From a virus: a stretch of 22,643 nucleotides of DNA. A model generated the notes under the pieces. The model searched no databases, had not been told where the DNA came from, and saw only the letters and a list, made by a program, of their open reading frames with translations. Location: positions 1 to 22,643 of the IMG/VR virus record IMGVR_UViG_3300010391_000290; one strand, 5' to 3'. The translations under genes were made by a program, and so were the position numbers. Below, in pieces: positions 2,933 to 22,480 of this stretch. Every line of letters starts with the position of its first letter. Position 1 is the first letter of the stretch.

Positions 2933-4336
2933 TTAGTGACCGGCGTCGTCATGAGTCTCTTTCCAACGCTTACCGAAAATTTCCTTGAGTTGTTCTTCGG
3001 CAGTTTTGACTCTGCTAAGAATTTCCATTCCCTCTACGGAGTTACGCTCGAATATGTCCACCTTACCGCAAGAAGTATCAAAAGCACATGGATACCAAAC
3101 ACCATCGGGACCAAAGCGGTTCTTCATAATGTAAATACGACCAGTGCCCGCCATCTTGTCTTCCTTCTTCCTCGACAACGACATGATGAAGTCACCAATC
3201 ATAATCTTGCGATAACTGTCAGCCACACCCATTGCTTCAATGATGTCTTCTTCGTGGACACCACGGTTGGCTTGTGAAGCAGTCCACCCCGGCACTTGAA
3301 GTTCACCGAGCATACCACGAAGTTCATCATACACGTTTCCCGCTTCATTATAGGAATTGGAATTCCGCTCTTGCATAAACGGACGAAGAAGGTCGGCATA
3401 GTCAACAATCACAAGGTCAATCTTGACTCCCGTGATTAACTGCAACCGTTCAATATGCATCTTCAATGTTGCAGACGATGCAGTTTTGGTTGGAAAGTAT
3501 TTGATGAATAGTTTGCCACACCCCTTAGACTTGATTTCATCCAACTTCTTCTGAATAATGGGTTGATTCTTACGAACTTCTTGAAATGCTACCCCCGAAA
3601 AGATAGAGTCATATCGAAGCCCAACATATTTATCATTCAACTCCATTGTGAAATGCATGACGTTCTTACCTTGCATCATAGCCTCGGCTCCAATGTGAGC
3701 CAAGAACCATGATTTACCGCTACCAGCGGGAGCCACAATAAATCCGAGTTCACCCTTGCCAAGACCACCATCAAGATGAGTATCAATGAGAGACCAATTT
3801 GTCTTGATGACTTCACGAGCCATTGCCGACATACGCAGGTCAATTTCGGCGAGATACTCATGCCCAAGGTTACGTTCCATCCCCGCCTTTGATGCTTCGT
3901 TGATGGTGTTCCATATACCTTCGTAGTCACCTTCCTTCAACAAAATTTGAGAGGCCCAAATAGCATTCTTCAACTTCTGATTGCGACAAAAGGTCAAGAA
4001 CTGTTCCTTGATGTACGGCAAGTCCTTAGAAGTTGATACTTCGTTGTACGCCATCTTGACTTGTTCCCGCACCGCAACTTGCATCAACGGGTCTTGTATT
4101 CGCATGATTTCACACGCAAACACCGACATCGTTGGAATGTCTCGATATGCAGGGAAATAGGTGGAAACGAATTTCACGACCCAGCGATGAGCATCTGTCT
4201 CGAAATAATCGGGGGACATGATGTCAATGATTCTTTCCAAAAACGCACGGTCTGATAGCATTGCAGCCAAACACTTCGCCTGAAAGGGAGTGCCGAATTT
4301 CTTGAGGTTGTTTACCTCACCTGATTGTGGTTCCAT
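2933..4336 (-). CDS. Replicative DNA helicase, DnaB/T4 gp41-like
   Basis: A RecA-fold hexameric helicase of 467 residues that would unwind DNA at the phage fork. Walker A is APAGSGKS (about residues 202-209) and Walker B is DLVIVDYADLL (about 307-317). A later WTASQANRG motif and a basic SLSRKKEDK segment match the sensor and arginine-finger regions of DnaB-family enzymes. The N-terminal 130 residues (NLKKFGTPFQAKCLAAMLSD and following) resemble the gp41/DnaB N-terminal domain that contacts primase. The start is placed at the ATG at 4336 (MEPQSGEV), because the upstream codons overlap the truncated endonuclease gene and look unlike a helicase; a weak AGAAG lies before this ATG. It overlaps the endonuclease reading frame by 20 bases. 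Family is clear; the exact start is less so. Confidence 0.92.
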   Translation of the reverse strand: MEPQSGEVNNLKKFGTPFQAKCLAAMLSDRAFLERIIDIMSPDYFETDAHRWVVKFVSTYFPAYRDIPTMSVFACEIMRIQDPLMQVAVREQVKMAYNEVSTSKDLPYIKEQFLTFCRNQKLKNAIWASQILLKEGDYEGIWNTINEASKAGMERNLGHEYLAEIDLRMSAMAREVIKTNWSLIDTHLDGGLGKGELGFIVAPAGSGKSWFLAHIGAEAMMQGKNVMHFTMELNDKYVGLRYDSIFSGVAFQEVRKNQPIIQKKLDEIKSKGCGKLFIKYFPTKTASSATLKMHIERLQLITGVKIDLVIVDYADLLRPFMQERNSNSYNEAGNVYDELRGMLGELQVPGWTASQANRGVHEEDIIEAMGVADSYRKIMIGDFIMSLSRKKEDKMAGTGRIYIMKNRFGPDGVWYPCAFDTSCGKVDIFERNSVEGMEILSRVKTAEEQLKEIFGKRWKETHDDAGH

Positions 4337-4877
4337 AAATCTTCTTGTATGCAGTCGTATCCGGCTTGTTTTTTCTATCAAACCCAACATTAAGCCCACT
4401 CAACGCACATTTCCCATCTTGCATCAAATAGAGGTTCCATATTTGTTCAATGGTTATGGTGAACTCCAATTTTTTCTGTCGGGCATGTGCCCTAATATTC
4501 GCAAAATGATGCCCGTCTATATCGCCAACCCTAACCTGATGTAAACAACCACAACTTTTTACTTCTCCGCTTTTAAGACGAGACGCCTTGACAATTTTGT
4601 GTTTTCCACATTCGCACAAACAATTCCACAATGCTTGTTGTTTACAATCGGTTCCCACAAACTGCTCGACAATCAACTTTCCAAACGGTTTATTTTCTAA
4701 GTTTTCATATTGCCGCTTCCTCGGTATTTTGTAAGCCTTTATCTTGGACTGAACATATGGATAACTTAGCCCAGTCAATGCTGCTATTTCTCGAACCCTC
4801 ATATTTTTCACGGAATAGTGGGTTTCTAAAAATTTCTTTGTTAAAATAATACTCATATTACGGATTTTTCTTTTCAT
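4317..4877 (-). pseudogene. C-terminally truncated HNH-type homing endonuclease
   Basis: A 186-residue frame with the layout of free-standing phage HNH homing endonucleases. It has an N-terminal helix-turn-helix (REIAALTGLSYPYVQSKI, about 29-46), a cysteine-rich DNA-binding domain (WNCLCECGKHKIVKASRL, then KSCGCL, about 84-112), and the start of the nuclease domain (the IRAHARQKKLEFTI stretch, then GKCALSGLNVGFDR). Family members normally continue with a DRIDS-like strand and a GY..GN.QWVH segment carrying the catalytic His and Asn; here the frame stops about 20 residues after CALSG, inside the helicase start. None of the three forward frames shows the missing part. It is therefore probably nuclease-dead, perhaps the remains of a homing gene that had settled next to the helicase. 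A start at the internal ATG (4856) is also possible; neither has a good ribosome site. It might still be expressed as a DNA-binding protein. Confidence 0.7.
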
Positions 4878-5000: not shown

Positions 5001-6029
5001 ATGATAAACGAAAACTACACTGTTGACATCCTCATCAACGATAAACCAGTGAGGAAATTCCCATTCAATGACAAACTCTTCGTCGAAGCACGGAAAGGGC
5101 AAGAATACTCAATCCGCATCAAAAACAATTCATACAGCCGAATTCTGGCTGTATCTTCCGTTGATGGATTAGACGTTCTCACAGGAAAATCAGCACTTGA
5201 AAATGGGAATGGATACGTCATAAATGGTTATAATTCATTGACTATTGACGGGTTCCGTGTCTCGAATGAAAAGGTTGCGAAATTCCTCTTCGACTTCAAA
5301 GGCGGCTCCTATGCTGCCTCCAAGGAAGATGGTTCGGAGCGCAATGTCGGTGTAATCGGTGCCCGCATCTTCACCGAGAAAGTCAAGCCACCGCCTCCCG
5401 TTGTCATTCGGGAAGAGCATCATCACCACCACGATCATTACCCCAATCCTCCGTGGTACAACCGCCCCTATTGGTGGGACAACCCTACCATCTGGTGTGG
5501 TGGACTGACCAGAGATGGTGATACAGCTAGTTATGGTACGTCCTACAACTCTATGGGCGACATGGCCAGAGGCGATGATGGACTCGGCTTCGCTGACGAG
5601 TGTCTGTACTCCTGTGACAGCATTCCTACCAAGGGTGCTCCCCTTGGGCGTTCTTCTACGAAATCGTCTGCAATGGGACAGAGTACAAGAGGCATTACCA
5701 GCCAAAAACTGAGTTTCGCAGGCAATTCCTCGGCTCAAGCATCCAACACCACTGACGAGAATCTGACCCGTGGTATGAGAAGTTTGTGCAGCCAGCCCGA
5801 ACCTCTTGGCTTCGACATGGGCACAAAATGGGGTGAGGCCAAAGAAAGCCGAGTCATCGAAGTGGAATTTGAGAAGGGTCTCCTTGCTCTTACCACGAAC
5901 ATCTATTACGCTAGTCGTCAATCGCTTATCGAGATGGGTGTGCCACTCGGAAATGAGAAACAAGTAAGCTTCCCAGAACCTTTCAAGGACGGGAAGTATG
6001 CGGAACCACCGAAGAACTGGAAGGGTTAA
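5001..6029 (+). CDS. Uncharacterised conserved phage protein with a His-rich middle
   Basis: A 342-residue soluble protein with no signal peptide or membrane segment. The N-terminal 125 residues form a beta-rich domain (VDILINDKPVRKF, YSIRIKNNSYSRILAVSSVDGL, then NGYVINGYNSLTIDGFRV and NVGVIGARIF). This resembles an unnamed family I recall in phages and some bacteria; its function is unknown to me. A proline stretch and the cluster REEHHHHHDHYPNPPWY (about 137-153) follow and could bind a metal. The middle is rich in Gly, Ser and Thr and looks disordered. The last 60 residues return to a folded pattern and end in YAEPPKNWKG, also a recurring ending in that family. It reads against its neighbours, has its own promoter, and its stop overlaps that of the converging gene. 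A structural or decoration role is possible but not shown. Confidence 0.8.
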   Translation: MINENYTVDILINDKPVRKFPFNDKLFVEARKGQEYSIRIKNNSYSRILAVSSVDGLDVLTGKSALENGNGYVINGYNSLTIDGFRVSNEKVAKFLFDFKGGSYAASKEDGSERNVGVIGARIFTEKVKPPPPVVIREEHHHHHDHYPNPPWYNRPYWWDNPTIWCGGLTRDGDTASYGTSYNSMGDMARGDDGLGFADECLYSCDSIPTKGAPLGRSSTKSSAMGQSTRGITSQKLSFAGNSSAQASNTTDENLTRGMRSLCSQPEPLGFDMGTKWGEAKESRVIEVEFEKGLLALTTNIYYASRQSLIEMGVPLGNEKQVSFPEPFKDGKYAEPPKNWKG

Positions 6030-18470: not shown

Positions 18471-21089
18471 TTATGCTACCTTGTTTACCCCGTATCCGCC
18501 ACGAAATTCAGTCTGGCGAGCGAGATGTGTACTAAGTAACTGACCATCCATTTTGATATTGTTGTCCTTGGCGAGTATCTTCTCAAGTAATGAGCAGATT
18601 TTCTGTCCAGTTGCCTCAGACATTGGAGGAGAATCTTTTTCACTTTCTTTGCCAGCTTCGCCGGGCTTTTTCTTGAGTGATGCAACCTCAGTTCCTTTAG
18701 GACTTACTGTGACCGCAGGAATATAAGCGGCAGTAGCTTTCTTTTCTACAGAACCACCGGCCTTACCCGCACCAAACAATTTTCCGACAAATTTTCCAAT
18801 GCTGGCAAATTTATCCATTATCCATGTAAATGCCTTTCGGAACGGGGATGTAAGAACATCAAACAGCATTCCACCAACAGACTTGATTCCCTCGACTATG
18901 CTAAGTCCAAATGCCGATGGTGATTTCCCGGGTATTCCACTGGTTCCGTACCACCAGTTCGCAAATTTATCAAACGGCCACTTCATCCATCCGTATATGG
19001 CACTTGAAACGGATTTTATCCCCGACACTGCCCCGTCCCACATATCAAACAACTTAAGCCATACCCACGTAGCAAACTCATCAATAACAGCAAATTTTTT
19101 TCTAAGCCATGTACCAATTGCCCACCCCCCAATTGCCGACGCTATAACAAGTCCTGCTGCTGTCATAATTGCGCCAATACCCATAGCAAAAATCCCCGAA
19201 ATTGATGTGGTAAGGAGGGTGCCAAGAAATGGTAATAAACCAGTAAAAATCCCCGAAATTGATGTCCACAGTGTTCCAGCCCATCCAACAATATTCATAC
19301 CAAACGCAAACAACATTGGCCCCAATCCCAAAAGTGCTCTCGTTATTCCCGGGAGATATTTCGCCATTCCATAGCCAAGTGACCGACCAATATTGAAGGC
19401 GGATAGTCTGTTTTTCAGTAATAACAAATTTTGAAATATCAGAGCACGATTGGTTGCAAGTATTATCAATTTATTTGCCAACCAAATTCCACCAATGACA
19501 ATACTTATCCACTTGATTGTATCGAAGCTCTTAACGATGAATCCAAGAAACTTATCAATGACTGGAAGAAAAACCTGTTGTATCTTAGCAAGCAATTGAT
19601 TCCACTTAGCTGTAATTGCCGTGATTCGCTCTTGGTTTGCCTTTGCCTGAATCATAAGCCCAACATCTTTGGCTCTGGCTTTTGCGGCTGCGGCATTTTC
19701 TTTACTCATCTTCTCGTACAACGCAAGTTGCGCCTTCTGCTCTGGAGTTCCCCGACGCCTTATCTGTTCAATTTGCTTATCGGTCTGCAACATATTAAGC
19801 AATTCCTCAACACTCTTACCAGTTGCGGCAGCATATGCCTGTTGCTGAAACACATCAAGTTTTTCGAAATTAACTTGTTTGGTAATACGAAGAATTTCCT
19901 TCGTTGAACCCACAAGGTCTCTTCGATATGCTAACTCACGAGCACGTTGTAGGTTAATACCTCTCCCCAATAACACCGAAGCTTCCATTTCCTCATTTAC
20001 ACTTTCTGTGAAATCCAAAATATGTCGGCTGGAATCTGCGACCGCATTCATGTCGGTTCCCATTCGACGAAGTTCAATTGCCGACCGCAAAGCTACATTC
20101 GGAAGACGAGACATCATTATAAGGGTTTTGGAAGACTTAGTAGCCACGTCACCCATAACATCACTGAGTTGAACTCCTGCCGCCGAAGACATGGCTTGGG
20201 CCATGTACATCATATTGCTCTGGGATTCCATCGAACTCTTGGAAACTGATGCCAAATTGCGTAGGAACCTTGCACTCATCTCTTCGGAAATACCAAGTTG
20301 AGCCGCCATGACTGATACATCCTTAACCAGTTCAGCCGAAACATTGTGAACACCACCCATTGACTTCCCGAGGGCTTGGTAGGACTTGTAAACGCTCTCC
20401 ACGGTTACGCCAATATGCATGTAGTCAATGGCAATCCGTTGGGCAATCTTTTGAATAACAGCCGACTCAGCACGAGTCATGCCCATTGCCTTGCGAAAAT
20501 CCCATGCTGCTTTATCAAACTTAAGGAAGAGTTTGTATGCTCCTTGAAGCATTACTACAATAGCAGCTAATGTATAAGCAAGCCCCCGACTTATACCGCC
20601 CAATTTGAATAATTCAGTCCCGATTTTTTTGGTTAGGTCATATTCATTTACTTTTATTCCAAAAAGTTCTTTCGCTTGAGAGAACGCAAACTTGGAAAAC
20701 CTGTGTGCATCGGCATAACGACGTTTCGCCATATCCATCTCCGCTCTATTAGCTTCCTGAGACATATTGATGAGATTCCATTTAGCATCCATTTCGTCTT
20801 CTATGTCTTGAATTATTTGGTTAGCACGTTCCCGTGCGGCACCTACCGTCCCTACTGCTGCTGCCACTTGCACTTGATGTTCGAGAACTTTGGTCTGAAT
20901 CTCGTCCATCATTCGCTTTTCGTTCTGGCGACGTTGAATTATTCGCCTCTCAAGTTGGAGGTCTATAATCCCGATTTCCGACCGGAGAGTCTTCTCGGCC
21001 ATTAACAACTCAAGATGCGACTTCTGTACATCTATGAAGTCTCGAAATCTGGCAATATTAGTTTCATCTGGGAATGTAGGAATATCCAT
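18471..21089 (-). CDS. Tail tape measure protein
   Basis: An 872-residue protein with classic tape measure features. The first 150 residues are a long charged coiled coil (LRSEIGIIDLQLERRIIQRR, and heptads to about 130). Residues 150-520 are mainly helical with many Ala, Met and Lys. Residues 525-690 contain several hydrophobic stretches (WISIVIGGIWLANKLIILAT and MGIGAIMTAAGLVIASAIGG among them). The C-terminus ends in IKMDGQLLSTHLARQTEF, like the short end domain of other tape measures. At about 0.15 nm per residue it would set a tail near 130 nm. The tail genes on either side support the call. The ATG at 21089 is preceded by an in-frame stop, so no earlier start exists. There is no ribosome site, and a palindrome lies just upstream. 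Confidence 0.88.
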   Translation of the reverse strand: MDIPTFPDETNIARFRDFIDVQKSHLELLMAEKTLRSEIGIIDLQLERRIIQRRQNEKRMMDEIQTKVLEHQVQVAAAVGTVGAARERANQIIQDIEDEMDAKWNLINMSQEANRAEMDMAKRRYADAHRFSKFAFSQAKELFGIKVNEYDLTKKIGTELFKLGGISRGLAYTLAAIVVMLQGAYKLFLKFDKAAWDFRKAMGMTRAESAVIQKIAQRIAIDYMHIGVTVESVYKSYQALGKSMGGVHNVSAELVKDVSVMAAQLGISEEMSARFLRNLASVSKSSMESQSNMMYMAQAMSSAAGVQLSDVMGDVATKSSKTLIMMSRLPNVALRSAIELRRMGTDMNAVADSSRHILDFTESVNEEMEASVLLGRGINLQRARELAYRRDLVGSTKEILRITKQVNFEKLDVFQQQAYAAATGKSVEELLNMLQTDKQIEQIRRRGTPEQKAQLALYEKMSKENAAAAKARAKDVGLMIQAKANQERITAITAKWNQLLAKIQQVFLPVIDKFLGFIVKSFDTIKWISIVIGGIWLANKLIILATNRALIFQNLLLLKNRLSAFNIGRSLGYGMAKYLPGITRALLGLGPMLFAFGMNIVGWAGTLWTSISGIFTGLLPFLGTLLTTSISGIFAMGIGAIMTAAGLVIASAIGGWAIGTWLRKKFAVIDEFATWVWLKLFDMWDGAVSGIKSVSSAIYGWMKWPFDKFANWWYGTSGIPGKSPSAFGLSIVEGIKSVGGMLFDVLTSPFRKAFTWIMDKFASIGKFVGKLFGAGKAGGSVEKKATAAYIPAVTVSPKGTEVASLKKKPGEAGKESEKDSPPMSEATGQKICSLLEKILAKDNNIKMDGQLLSTHLARQTEFRGGYGVNKVA
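19188..19265 (-). repeat. Perfect direct repeat inside the tape measure gene
   Basis: A 21-base sequence at 19188-19208 is repeated exactly at 19245-19265, 57 bases apart (19 codons). It encodes TSISGIF twice, within the hydrophobic part of the protein. Identity at silent positions suggests a recent local duplication or gene conversion. Confidence 0.75.
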
Positions 21090-21178: not shown

Positions 21179-21433
21179 ATGAATGAAACAACTGAAAATC
21201 ATTGGCTCTCACGGCTGATAATTGGAATTGGGGTCGTCGGAGTACTGGCGGTGTTGGTGGGATGTATGATTGCCCCCTTGTTTGGGCCGTGGTTCCGCCA
21301 AAGAAAGATAATGGAATACGCCATTTATTCCGACTGTGAAAGCCGAGTGGATACTGAAATGGTCGGGGTCTATGTGATCCTGTGGATTATTGCAATAGCA
21401 GCTTGGGCTATTGTCATTGTTTGTAACATTTAA
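21179..21433 (+). CDS. Small two-helix membrane protein, unknown
   Basis: An 84-residue protein with two hydrophobic helices: about 13-33 (RLIIGIGVVGVLAVLVGCMI) and about 62-82 (VYVILWIIAIAAWAIVIVCN). A short charged loop between them contains RQRKIMEY and DCESRVD. No catalytic motif is visible. It reads on the strand opposite to the tail genes that surround it, has a strong promoter with an operator-like repeat, and its stop overlaps the stop of the converging gp51-like frame. Such a single-gene insert with its own promoter resembles a moron. An inner-membrane role such as superinfection exclusion or lysis control is conceivable, but nothing in the sequence shows it. Confidence 0.7.
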   Translation: MNETTENHWLSRLIIGIGVVGVLAVLVGCMIAPLFGPWFRQRKIMEYAIYSDCESRVDTEMVGVYVILWIIAIAAWAIVIVCNI

Positions 21434-21673
21434 CGCCGGTCAATCCCCGGCCCCCTAACTATTGACGACTGAGAGGGAGCATCTTTTTCTCCCGATGCCT
21501 TATCCATATTATGTTTCTCCTTCTCCTTCGTATTGACAAGCTTGCGGAGATAAAATGACCTGTATTGCACAGGCATTTCGTACACGGCGAAGTATTCAAT
21601 GTTCCCAAAATGGGTCAAATCGAATATGAGTTCGTGGAGTTGTACTTTATACTCCTGAGTTAGGCCAAAAAAA
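21430..21673 (-). CDS. 51: gp51-like baseplate/tape-measure chaperone segment, reached by frameshift
   Basis: After the T7 run, a second frame continues for 78 codons past the frame of the gp26-like protein: GLTQEYKVQLHELIFDLTHF, then EYFAVYEMPVQYRSFYLRKL, then a charged tail. The pattern of a helix, Tyr/Phe-rich strand, MPVQYRSFYLRKLV and a lysine-rich helix resembles the small gp51-type proteins of T4-like phages, which assist baseplate hub assembly. No ATG or GTG starts it near the junction; the upstream part of the frame is the shadow of gp26, and only two TTG codons lie close by. It is therefore probably translated as a gp26-gp51 fusion by +1 or -2 frameshifting at 21667-21673. It sits just before the tape measure gene, where many phages carry frameshifted tail chaperones (G/GT of lambda). 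Confidence 0.62.
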
Positions 21674-22480
21674 GGATACGCCCATCGGGGTCTCCTCCTT
21701 CCGTTCAAGATTACAGTTTGAACAGATGAAATCAAATGTAGTATCAATGTCAGGCATGTTCGCCCGTAAGTGAATGCGGAGAGCAAGACTATCCTTGGAA
21801 ACAAGTTCTTCATTAACAAAACGACGAATGGCTGCACGATCAGTATTACCATTGATGGCGGTGATGATATGACCAAGGCGGGTCGTAATCTCACGGCGTA
21901 GGTCTTTAGATACCTTCTCCATACCCTTCAATTCTTGGTCAATCAGATTTTCATCCTTTTTGGTTAAAAGCTTGAAGGTAACAGTATGCCCCGAATATGG
22001 AAGTTTGAATTGGAAAGCGTTATCTCCCTTGGGATACTTCTCAAAATCGAAAGGGCGGTTATCCATCTTATCGAGATTAATGGTAATGGAATTTTCCTTG
22101 CCGCAACGCCCACAAGTCAATGTGGCATCGTAAGCATCACCATAGGCTAATCGGCGAATGGCAAAAAAAGCAGCATTCCTATCACAAATGAGCATATCAT
22201 CAAGAACAATGGCCTTGTTGACTGTCACCGATTCAAGAAGTTTATCCAGAACAATGTTCTTTTGAATGAGGTTTGGAGAAGTTAAAATGTCCTCTTCCTT
22301 AGCAGTCATCATCTTGAGTTCAAGTGTGCCAATGGAAAGCGGACTTTCTGCGGGGTAAAACCATCCTTTTGAAGGGAGATTGATAACTTCTGTCGGAAAC
22401 TTTGATTCCATCTTCTGTGGAGCAGAAGCGGGTTGACTTACTGTCGGCCTAGTGATTGGTATGATTTGGTCGTTTGGCAT
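21647..22480 (-). CDS. 26: gp26-like baseplate protein with zinc-binding cysteines
   Basis: A 277-residue protein of the T4 gp26 family. The hallmark is LPSKGWFYPAESPLSIGTLE followed by LKMMTAKEEDILTSPN (about 35-70). Two cysteine pairs (CGRC at 123-126 and CSNC at 253-256) can together bind one zinc. The C-terminal FFWP is, as I recall, the usual ending in this family, so the zero-frame stop shortly after it is probably natural. The family is needed to build the baseplate hub; in T4 it acts together with gp51. The N-terminal 25 residues are Pro/Ser/Thr rich and flexible. It begins 10 bases after the stop of the partial upstream gene. Its last 13 codons overlap the gp51-like frame in another register. 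Confidence 0.9.
   Translation of the reverse strand: MPNDQIIPITRPTVSQPASAPQKMESKFPTEVINLPSKGWFYPAESPLSIGTLELKMMTAKEEDILTSPNLIQKNIVLDKLLESVTVNKAIVLDDMLICDRNAAFFAIRRLAYGDAYDATLTCGRCGKENSITINLDKMDNRPFDFEKYPKGDNAFQFKLPYSGHTVTFKLLTKKDENLIDQELKGMEKVSKDLRREITTRLGHIITAINGNTDRAAIRRFVNEELVSKDSLALRIHLRANMPDIDTTFDFICSNCNLERKEETPMGVSFFWPNSGV
21667..21700 (-). promoter_or_regulatory. Candidate programmed frameshift site: T7 run with upstream SD-like sequence
   Basis: The gp26 frame reads TCC TTT TTT TGG, and seven consecutive T (21667-21673) let the tRNA re-pair after slipping +1 or -2 into the gp51-like frame. A -1 slip would meet a stop two codons later. A perfect Shine-Dalgarno-like AAGGAGGAG (21700-21692) lies 18 bases before the run. 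Internal SD sequences stimulate several known bacterial frameshifts, although usually at shorter distance. No strong downstream hairpin was seen. Confidence 0.5.

Follow-up and report, generated by a model that had tools for sequence, protein, structure and literature searches.

Probable +1 recoding links gp26-like and gp51-like frames before the tape measure gene in a clade of T4-related phages

How is a gp51-like domain made when it lies in a different frame at the end of a gp26-like gene, directly before a tape measure gene? The locus is on the minus strand of IMG/VR virus record IMGVR_UViG_3300010391_000290, analysed here as one stretch of 22,643 nucleotides (the window). The gp26-like gene (22480..21647) encodes 277 aa, the short form with the tail assembly chaperone N domain, identified from its ORF, its PF12322 and phrog_150 matches and its AlphaFold2 model. 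It ends at a normal stop as the initial annotation stated, though four codons after FFWP, its C-terminal end being SFFWPNSGV*. The junction reads, 5' to 3' on the minus strand, GTA TCC TTT TTT TGG CCT AAC TCA GGA GTA TAA. It holds a T7 run (21667..21673, minus strand; zero frame TTT TTT T(GG)) with the shift site YTT_T, recognized from the sequence and its homologues. The proposed P-site codon is TTT (21668..21670, minus strand), with +1 re-pairing onto TTT 21669..21667; the next codon is TGG in the zero frame and GGC in the +1 frame. From 21673..21667 the +1 frame does continue, as the initial annotation had it, as a conserved gp51-like C-terminal domain of 79 aa (FGLTQEYKVQLHELIF; 21433..21669, minus strand; dN/dS, hhalign, AlphaFold2), reading FF and then GLTQEYKVQLHELIFDL / GLTQEYKVQLHELIFDLTHFGN up to a stop codon at 21432..21430. 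Translation that skips one base at the shift site gives the predicted long product of 349 aa (21433..22480, minus strand), the putative counterpart of lambda GT and T4 gp51, and in this fusion the phrog_150 match grows across the junction (residues 28-294). The −1 frame reads TTG GCC TAA, a stop after two codons, in agreement with the initial annotation. The next gene downstream (18471..21089, minus strand, 872 aa) matches the protein annotated as tape measure in Flavobacterium phage immuto (BLASTP E 6e-20), which bears out the proposed position of the pair; in immuto, too, the annotated tape measure gene directly follows the chaperone locus.

We estimate at roughly 90% the probability that programmed recoding joins the two frames, judging from comparative sequence evidence; our confidence in the precise mechanism, +1 slippage in the P-site, is somewhat lower. 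From the offset, site, domain and selection that comparison establishes below, we infer the ribosomal shift itself, its course as +1 P-site slippage and its rate as follows. Most ribosomes would terminate at the end of the gp26-like frame and release the 277-aa short form. In a minority, at UUU UUU UGG, the peptidyl-tRNA on the second UUU would slip +1 onto the overlapping UUU and reading would restart at GGC, yielding the long form of 349 aa, which carries the three-helix gp51-like domain. By analogy with lambda G/GT, and from what is known of the family, both forms would coat the tape measure protein encoded by the next gene, and the C-terminal domain would recruit the tail tube.

The N-terminal part matches PF12322 (E 3e-13, above the cut-off) and phrog_150, a baseplate hub family (E 8e-16). 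The N and C parts were modelled by AlphaFold2 separately; the N-part model has a pLDDT of 86.8 and a pTM of 0.80. Searched with Foldseek, it matched the HK97 tail assembly chaperone 2ob9_B at rank 10 by E among the matches listed. The match is weak (E 2.4, TM 0.50 on the target), with a probability of 0.30 that is the highest among the matches listed, and the likeness of the model to the HK97 chaperone fold is suggestive only. A PDB sequence search gave no match.

The identity of the C-terminal part was established through profiles. The profile of the +1 domain (alignment A2, 40 members) matched gp51 of cyanophages, pelagiphage HTVC008M, phiM12 and PhiW-14 in hhalign (96%, E 2e-9), and this cyanophage-group gp51 matched the C-terminus of T4 gp51 (88%). 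Both cyanophage-group gp51 and T4 gp51 match phrog_634 (baseplate hub assembly catalyst). Compared directly, the +1 domain and T4 gp51 alone gave no significant match; the cyanophages provide the link. On this profile evidence the C-terminal part is homologous to gp51. Its model is a three-helix unit (pLDDT 84), and the matches listed in a fold search against viral models include gp51 of Prochlorococcus phage P-HM1 (probability 0.89, TM 0.82 on the target, E 1.1). Pfam DUF6760 was matched by 9 of the 40 C domains (best 3e-5); as an aside, DUF6760 looks like a gp51-type C domain. PF12322 and DUF6760 occur in one frame in an ORF that follows a tube gene of the T4 gp19 type, within an injection-system-like locus (L300:862-1623) of one searched genome from the same phylum as a Flavobacteriales bin. 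Going by these domain matches, the ORF is a natural one-frame fusion of both halves.

Homologous loci were then compared across the junction. Scanning IMG/VR with the gp26-like protein yielded 80 loci (identity of the best segment 91-45%), of which those read across the junction had the same +1 offset. When a broader profile scan and one of GTDB genome contigs were added, the total rose to 171 loci (144 distinct), with gp26 identity down to about 36%. The peptide patterns of the two viral scans were placed away from the junction; in the GTDB genome scan (16 loci) one pattern included FFWP. A search for DNA-level relatives among phages found none. The +1 offset and the YTT_T site are kept in 143 of the 144 distinct loci, the sites being TTT TTT TGG (118), TTT CTT TGG (14), TTT TTT TAC (6), TTC TTT TGG (4) and TTT TTT TTC (1). 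The single outlier, TTT CTA, is from an uncultured phage (L083, LR756508). P-site codons are thus UUU (129) or CUU (14), near-exclusively, and the A-site codons are all sense codons (UGG 136, UAC 6, UUC 1). Few columns of the alignment are as synonymously frozen as the slip codons, and TTC and CTC never occur as the last Phe/Leu codon at the site. The zero-frame stop follows 3 to 10 codons after the site. Aligning homologous loci, as the initial annotation had proposed, thus bore out its offset and slippery site; its T7 run fared less well, being interrupted in 18 of the 144 sites (TTT CTT TGG and TTC TTT TGG) with the ORF and offset still kept.

The +1 ORF is present in all 171 loci (144 distinct) with a length of 62 to 114 codons. 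This is beyond chance, because the zero frame over the same DNA is full of stops (1129 in 10315 codons, about one per 9 codons). Past the zero-frame stop the median dN/dS is 0.09 (100 pairs of loci), which indicates that the +1 domain is under strong purifying selection. The same arrangement occurs in isolates, among them Microcystis phage Mel-JY01 and Flavobacterium phage immuto. In the more distant Bacillus phage SP-15 (site TTT TTT CAC) and Streptococcus phage GXN1 (site TTC TTT CGT), the +1 product matches the domain in hhalign at 91% and 84%, respectively. Rhodothermus phage RM378 has a T7 run with an open +1 frame, the product of which showed no detectable similarity to the gp51-like domain.

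Could the gp51-like frame be an independent gene that has a start codon of its own, possibly a coupled one? In the window alone it could: no stop interrupts the +1 frame over the 86 codons before the site, and GTG, ATG and TTG codons occur both there, where there are several, and downstream. An ATG also lies at the gp26 stop in P-SSM2, S-PM2, phiM12 and PhiW-14, and in Atu_ph07 and LR756511. The initial annotation's statement that this frame has no convincing start therefore cannot be drawn from the window and stands through the relatives, in many of which no ATG, GTG or TTG could start the +1 frame ahead of the domain. In 103 of the 144 distinct loci a stop closes the +1 frame no more than 12 codons before the site; from the upstream stop, no ATG, GTG or TTG is found through 8 codons past the site in 74 loci, nor through 20 codons past it in 49. 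The shift codon is where conservation of the domain sets in (FGLT). Directly behind TGG, 59 of 60 loci have CCT, a codon that accounts for 27% of proline codons elsewhere; the preference is explained by its last two bases, which open the +1 leucine codon CTN. A separate start would leave the frozen YTT_T unexplained as well, and we consider it very unlikely. Homologues with a separate gp51 start are present only in other branches.

Existing annotations have called the +1 region a short ORF or omitted part of it: SP-15 gp46 begins inside the domain and immuto 232 has 36 aa. We also observed that at L087:4755-4874 (SP15_046), L082:4851-4961 and L081:4746-4982 the C domain is annotated as truncated or doubtfully started hypothetical proteins.

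A −2 shift in place of +1 would reach the same frame with one extra residue, and the initial annotation had left both open. The T7 run permits either, and −2 shifting is known in Mu-type chaperones, which we counted in its favour. However, −2 re-pairing would be poor at TTT CTT TGG, where it would place the CUU-reading tRNA on UUC, and at TTC TTT TGG, where it would place the UUU-reading tRNA on UCU; for +1, every one of the 143 sites offers good re-pairing onto UUU. We regard a −2 shift as no more probable than a separate start. The site variants argue that the shift is +1 and that YTT_T is its essential element; the T7 run as such is dispensable, because 18 of the 144 sites interrupt it.

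Slippage of RNA polymerase on the T run, giving mixed mRNAs, is less probable still. Most members do have a homopolymer of seven, but a run of this length is short for efficient transcriptional slippage in bacteria, and the 18 loci with a broken run retain the ORF and the offset. Polymerase slippage is known for Citrobacter tssM (PMC4256274) and used in some secretion-system genes. The main alternative of the initial annotation, a one-base sequencing or assembly error (6 or 8 T) in a gene that is really one frame, has a negligible probability: T7 runs are error-prone on some platforms and the window is a single contig, but the homologues exclude it, with the same offset in 171 loci (144 distinct) from many metagenomes and the isolates Mel-JY01 and immuto, also at sites with just 3 or 4 T in a row. 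A classic −1 frameshift (X_XXY_YYZ) was considered and rejected; the −1 frame closes within 4 codons in 113 of the 144 loci.

We return to programmed +1 slippage and what might promote it. All 143 YTT_T sites permit perfect or prfB-like +1 re-pairing (UUU_U to UUU, CUU_U to UUU). CUU is the codon of the prfB site, where CCC and UUU are the next most slippery (PMC10885494); the match of the UUU and CUU P-site codons to these slippery codons was counted in favour of +1 slippage. The tetramer alone is insufficient for a shift, since TTT T is present in frame elsewhere in the gp26-like gene and TTT TGG was found 11 times elsewhere in 437 ORFs. An argument that the site must be slippery because TTT TGG is avoided elsewhere was considered and dropped, the cases being too few. 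No Shine-Dalgarno-like stimulator is conserved near the site, only a minority having GGGG or GGGT at 7-8 nt; the alignment showed no RNA structure conserved downstream (−1.2 kcal/mol), and an Rfam search gave no match. Downstream folding is somewhat more stable than in shuffled sequences (mean z −1.2, control −0.1). A candidate stimulator is the conserved peptide directly before the site (...VPMTVxFF, P[M/L]xVxFF). We tentatively propose, while thinking it rather less than an even bet, a new class of +1 site in a deep clade of phages related to T4, with members isolated on, or binned with, Bacteroidota, Bacillota and other groups. In this class a sense codon (UGG, UAC or UUC) would follow YUU_U, and the site would work without an internal Shine-Dalgarno or conserved RNA structure, perhaps stimulated by the nascent peptide (...P[M/L]xVxFF).

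How do other members of the T4 family make the pair? In T4, gp26 and gp51 are encoded on opposite strands and both match PF12322, gp51 having an extra C domain. By these matches the two are paralogues, gp51 being a gp26-like protein with an added C-terminal domain, and thus T4 makes its short and long forms by duplication. Campylobacter phage CP220 likewise has a short copy and a long copy. We also looked for versions of the pair in one uninterrupted frame, and found only these T4 and Campylobacter-phage duplicates and the injection-system-like locus described above. A single phrog_150 copy per genome was present in 11 of 11 records searched, frameshift types among them. In cyanophages gp26 is present once, and T_TTT_TTC is followed by the C domain in the −1 frame; this heptamer is invariant in 64 of 64 distinct IMG/VR cyanophage loci (L216-L295), with an ATG 5 nt past the stop. 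In pelagiphage HTVC008M the run is T8 and no ATG, GTG or TTG precedes the domain, so that a −1 shift is the simplest reading there. In Kyanoviridae, by extension from these sequences, the long chaperone may come from a −1 shift and not from restart. A tree of the N domain, in which many end branches are long, places the +1, −1-offset and duplicated types in separate groups (support 99/94, 99/88 and 96/81).

Two further observations concern these branches. T_TTT_TTC, or T8 in the case of HTVC008M, occurs at the gp26 end in the cyanophage loci (L216-L295) and in L097, L098 and L099. In the jumbo phages Atu_ph07 and LR756511 (L088 and L084, where the gp26-like gene ends near 4805 and 4802) the downstream ORF is in the −1 frame and has its own overlapping ATG.

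Like lambda G/GT, the locus would encode a short protein and a low-abundance C-terminally extended form (PMC5009743) in a single gene that immediately precedes the tape measure gene, with the shift near the end of the first ORF. It differs in that lambda shifts −1 and this locus +1 at YUU_U, and in its N domain, which is the T4 PF12322 type with no sequence similarity to G shown. With T4 gp26/gp51, the hub assembly chaperones, it shares the two domains, gp26 being the short form and gp51 a short-form-like domain plus the C domain; T4, however, has two paralogous genes on opposite strands, and here there is one gene with putative recoding. P-SSM2, S-PM2 and HTVC008M are alike in having a single gp26, adjacent to gp51 on one strand, and a poly-T encoding FF at the junction, but their offset is −1. 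The closest parallel to the shift site is prfB (release factor 2, CUU_UGA), which also has a P-site YUU followed by U and re-pairs +1 onto UUU; it has a UGA stop in the A site and an internal Shine-Dalgarno ~3 nt upstream, whereas the A-site codons here are UGG, UAC or UUC and no internal Shine-Dalgarno lies at a fixed spacing. From a different phage group, Bacillus phage 0305phi8-36 makes its chaperone pair from two paralogous genes (gp143/gp144), a G/GT pair without frameshifting (PMC2147016). The haloarchaeal myovirus HSTV-2, also from outside this phage group, is a precedent for the direction, a very likely case of a +1 shift in a tail chaperone (PMC5009743).

Frameshifting between G and T is widely conserved, with T4 as the exception (review, Atkins et al., 2016, PMC5009743). 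Papers citing Vladimirov, Gautam and Davidson (Virology 2022) credit that study with the duplication of the T4-like chaperones (PMC10885494) and, for T4-like phages, with −1 sites at poly-T (PMC12846349), and its title argues for a mechanism other than frameshifting for T4-like chaperones. As far as can be told from these citations, its scheme of TAC-N and TAC-NC, with T4-like duplication and some poly-T −1 sites, resembles ours, and gp26/gp51 were already known as short and long tail assembly chaperones. Our literature search, in which the 2022 study was judged via the papers that cite it, found no description of the +1 clade. The initial annotation's suggestion that such recoding was undescribed for the family thus holds for +1 shifting and falls short for the chaperones, the duplication and the poly-T −1 sites; what looks new is the deep clade using +1. 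Its central proposal, that the gp26/gp51 pair is the counterpart of G/GT made by recoding, is supported by the comparison over 144 loci, the gp51 homology and the tape measure gene next door. By these sequence criteria the predicted product pair corresponds to lambda G/GT.

A large sister clade that frameshifts +1, as the comparative evidence indicates, would mean that recoding belongs to the wider T4 family and that the two genes of T4 are one among several solutions. If true, the T4 superfamily would have settled in three ways, by +1 shifting, by −1 shifting or restart, and by duplication, on the same short and long chaperone pair. Recoding of the +1 type would also account for the small truncated or missing gp51 annotations in immuto, SP-15 and Mel-JY01. 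The 143 natural +1 site variants offer material on the causes of forward ribosomal slippage at a sense codon.

Some features of the window are recorded as separate observations. The gp26-like protein (21647-22480, minus strand) has two CxxC pairs, C123/C126 and C253/C256, which look zinc-ribbon-like; they are kept in most relatives and absent in immuto and Mel-JY01. A 342-aa ORF at 5001-6029 (plus strand) encodes a His-rich and a Trp/Tyr/Pro-rich stretch, EEHHHHHDHYPNPPWYNRPYWW, and lies on the strand opposite to most neighbouring genes. Between a helicase-like gene and this plus-strand ORF, a 186-aa ORF at 4317-4877 (minus strand) has a helix-turn-helix-like start and may be an insertion of the homing-endonuclease type.
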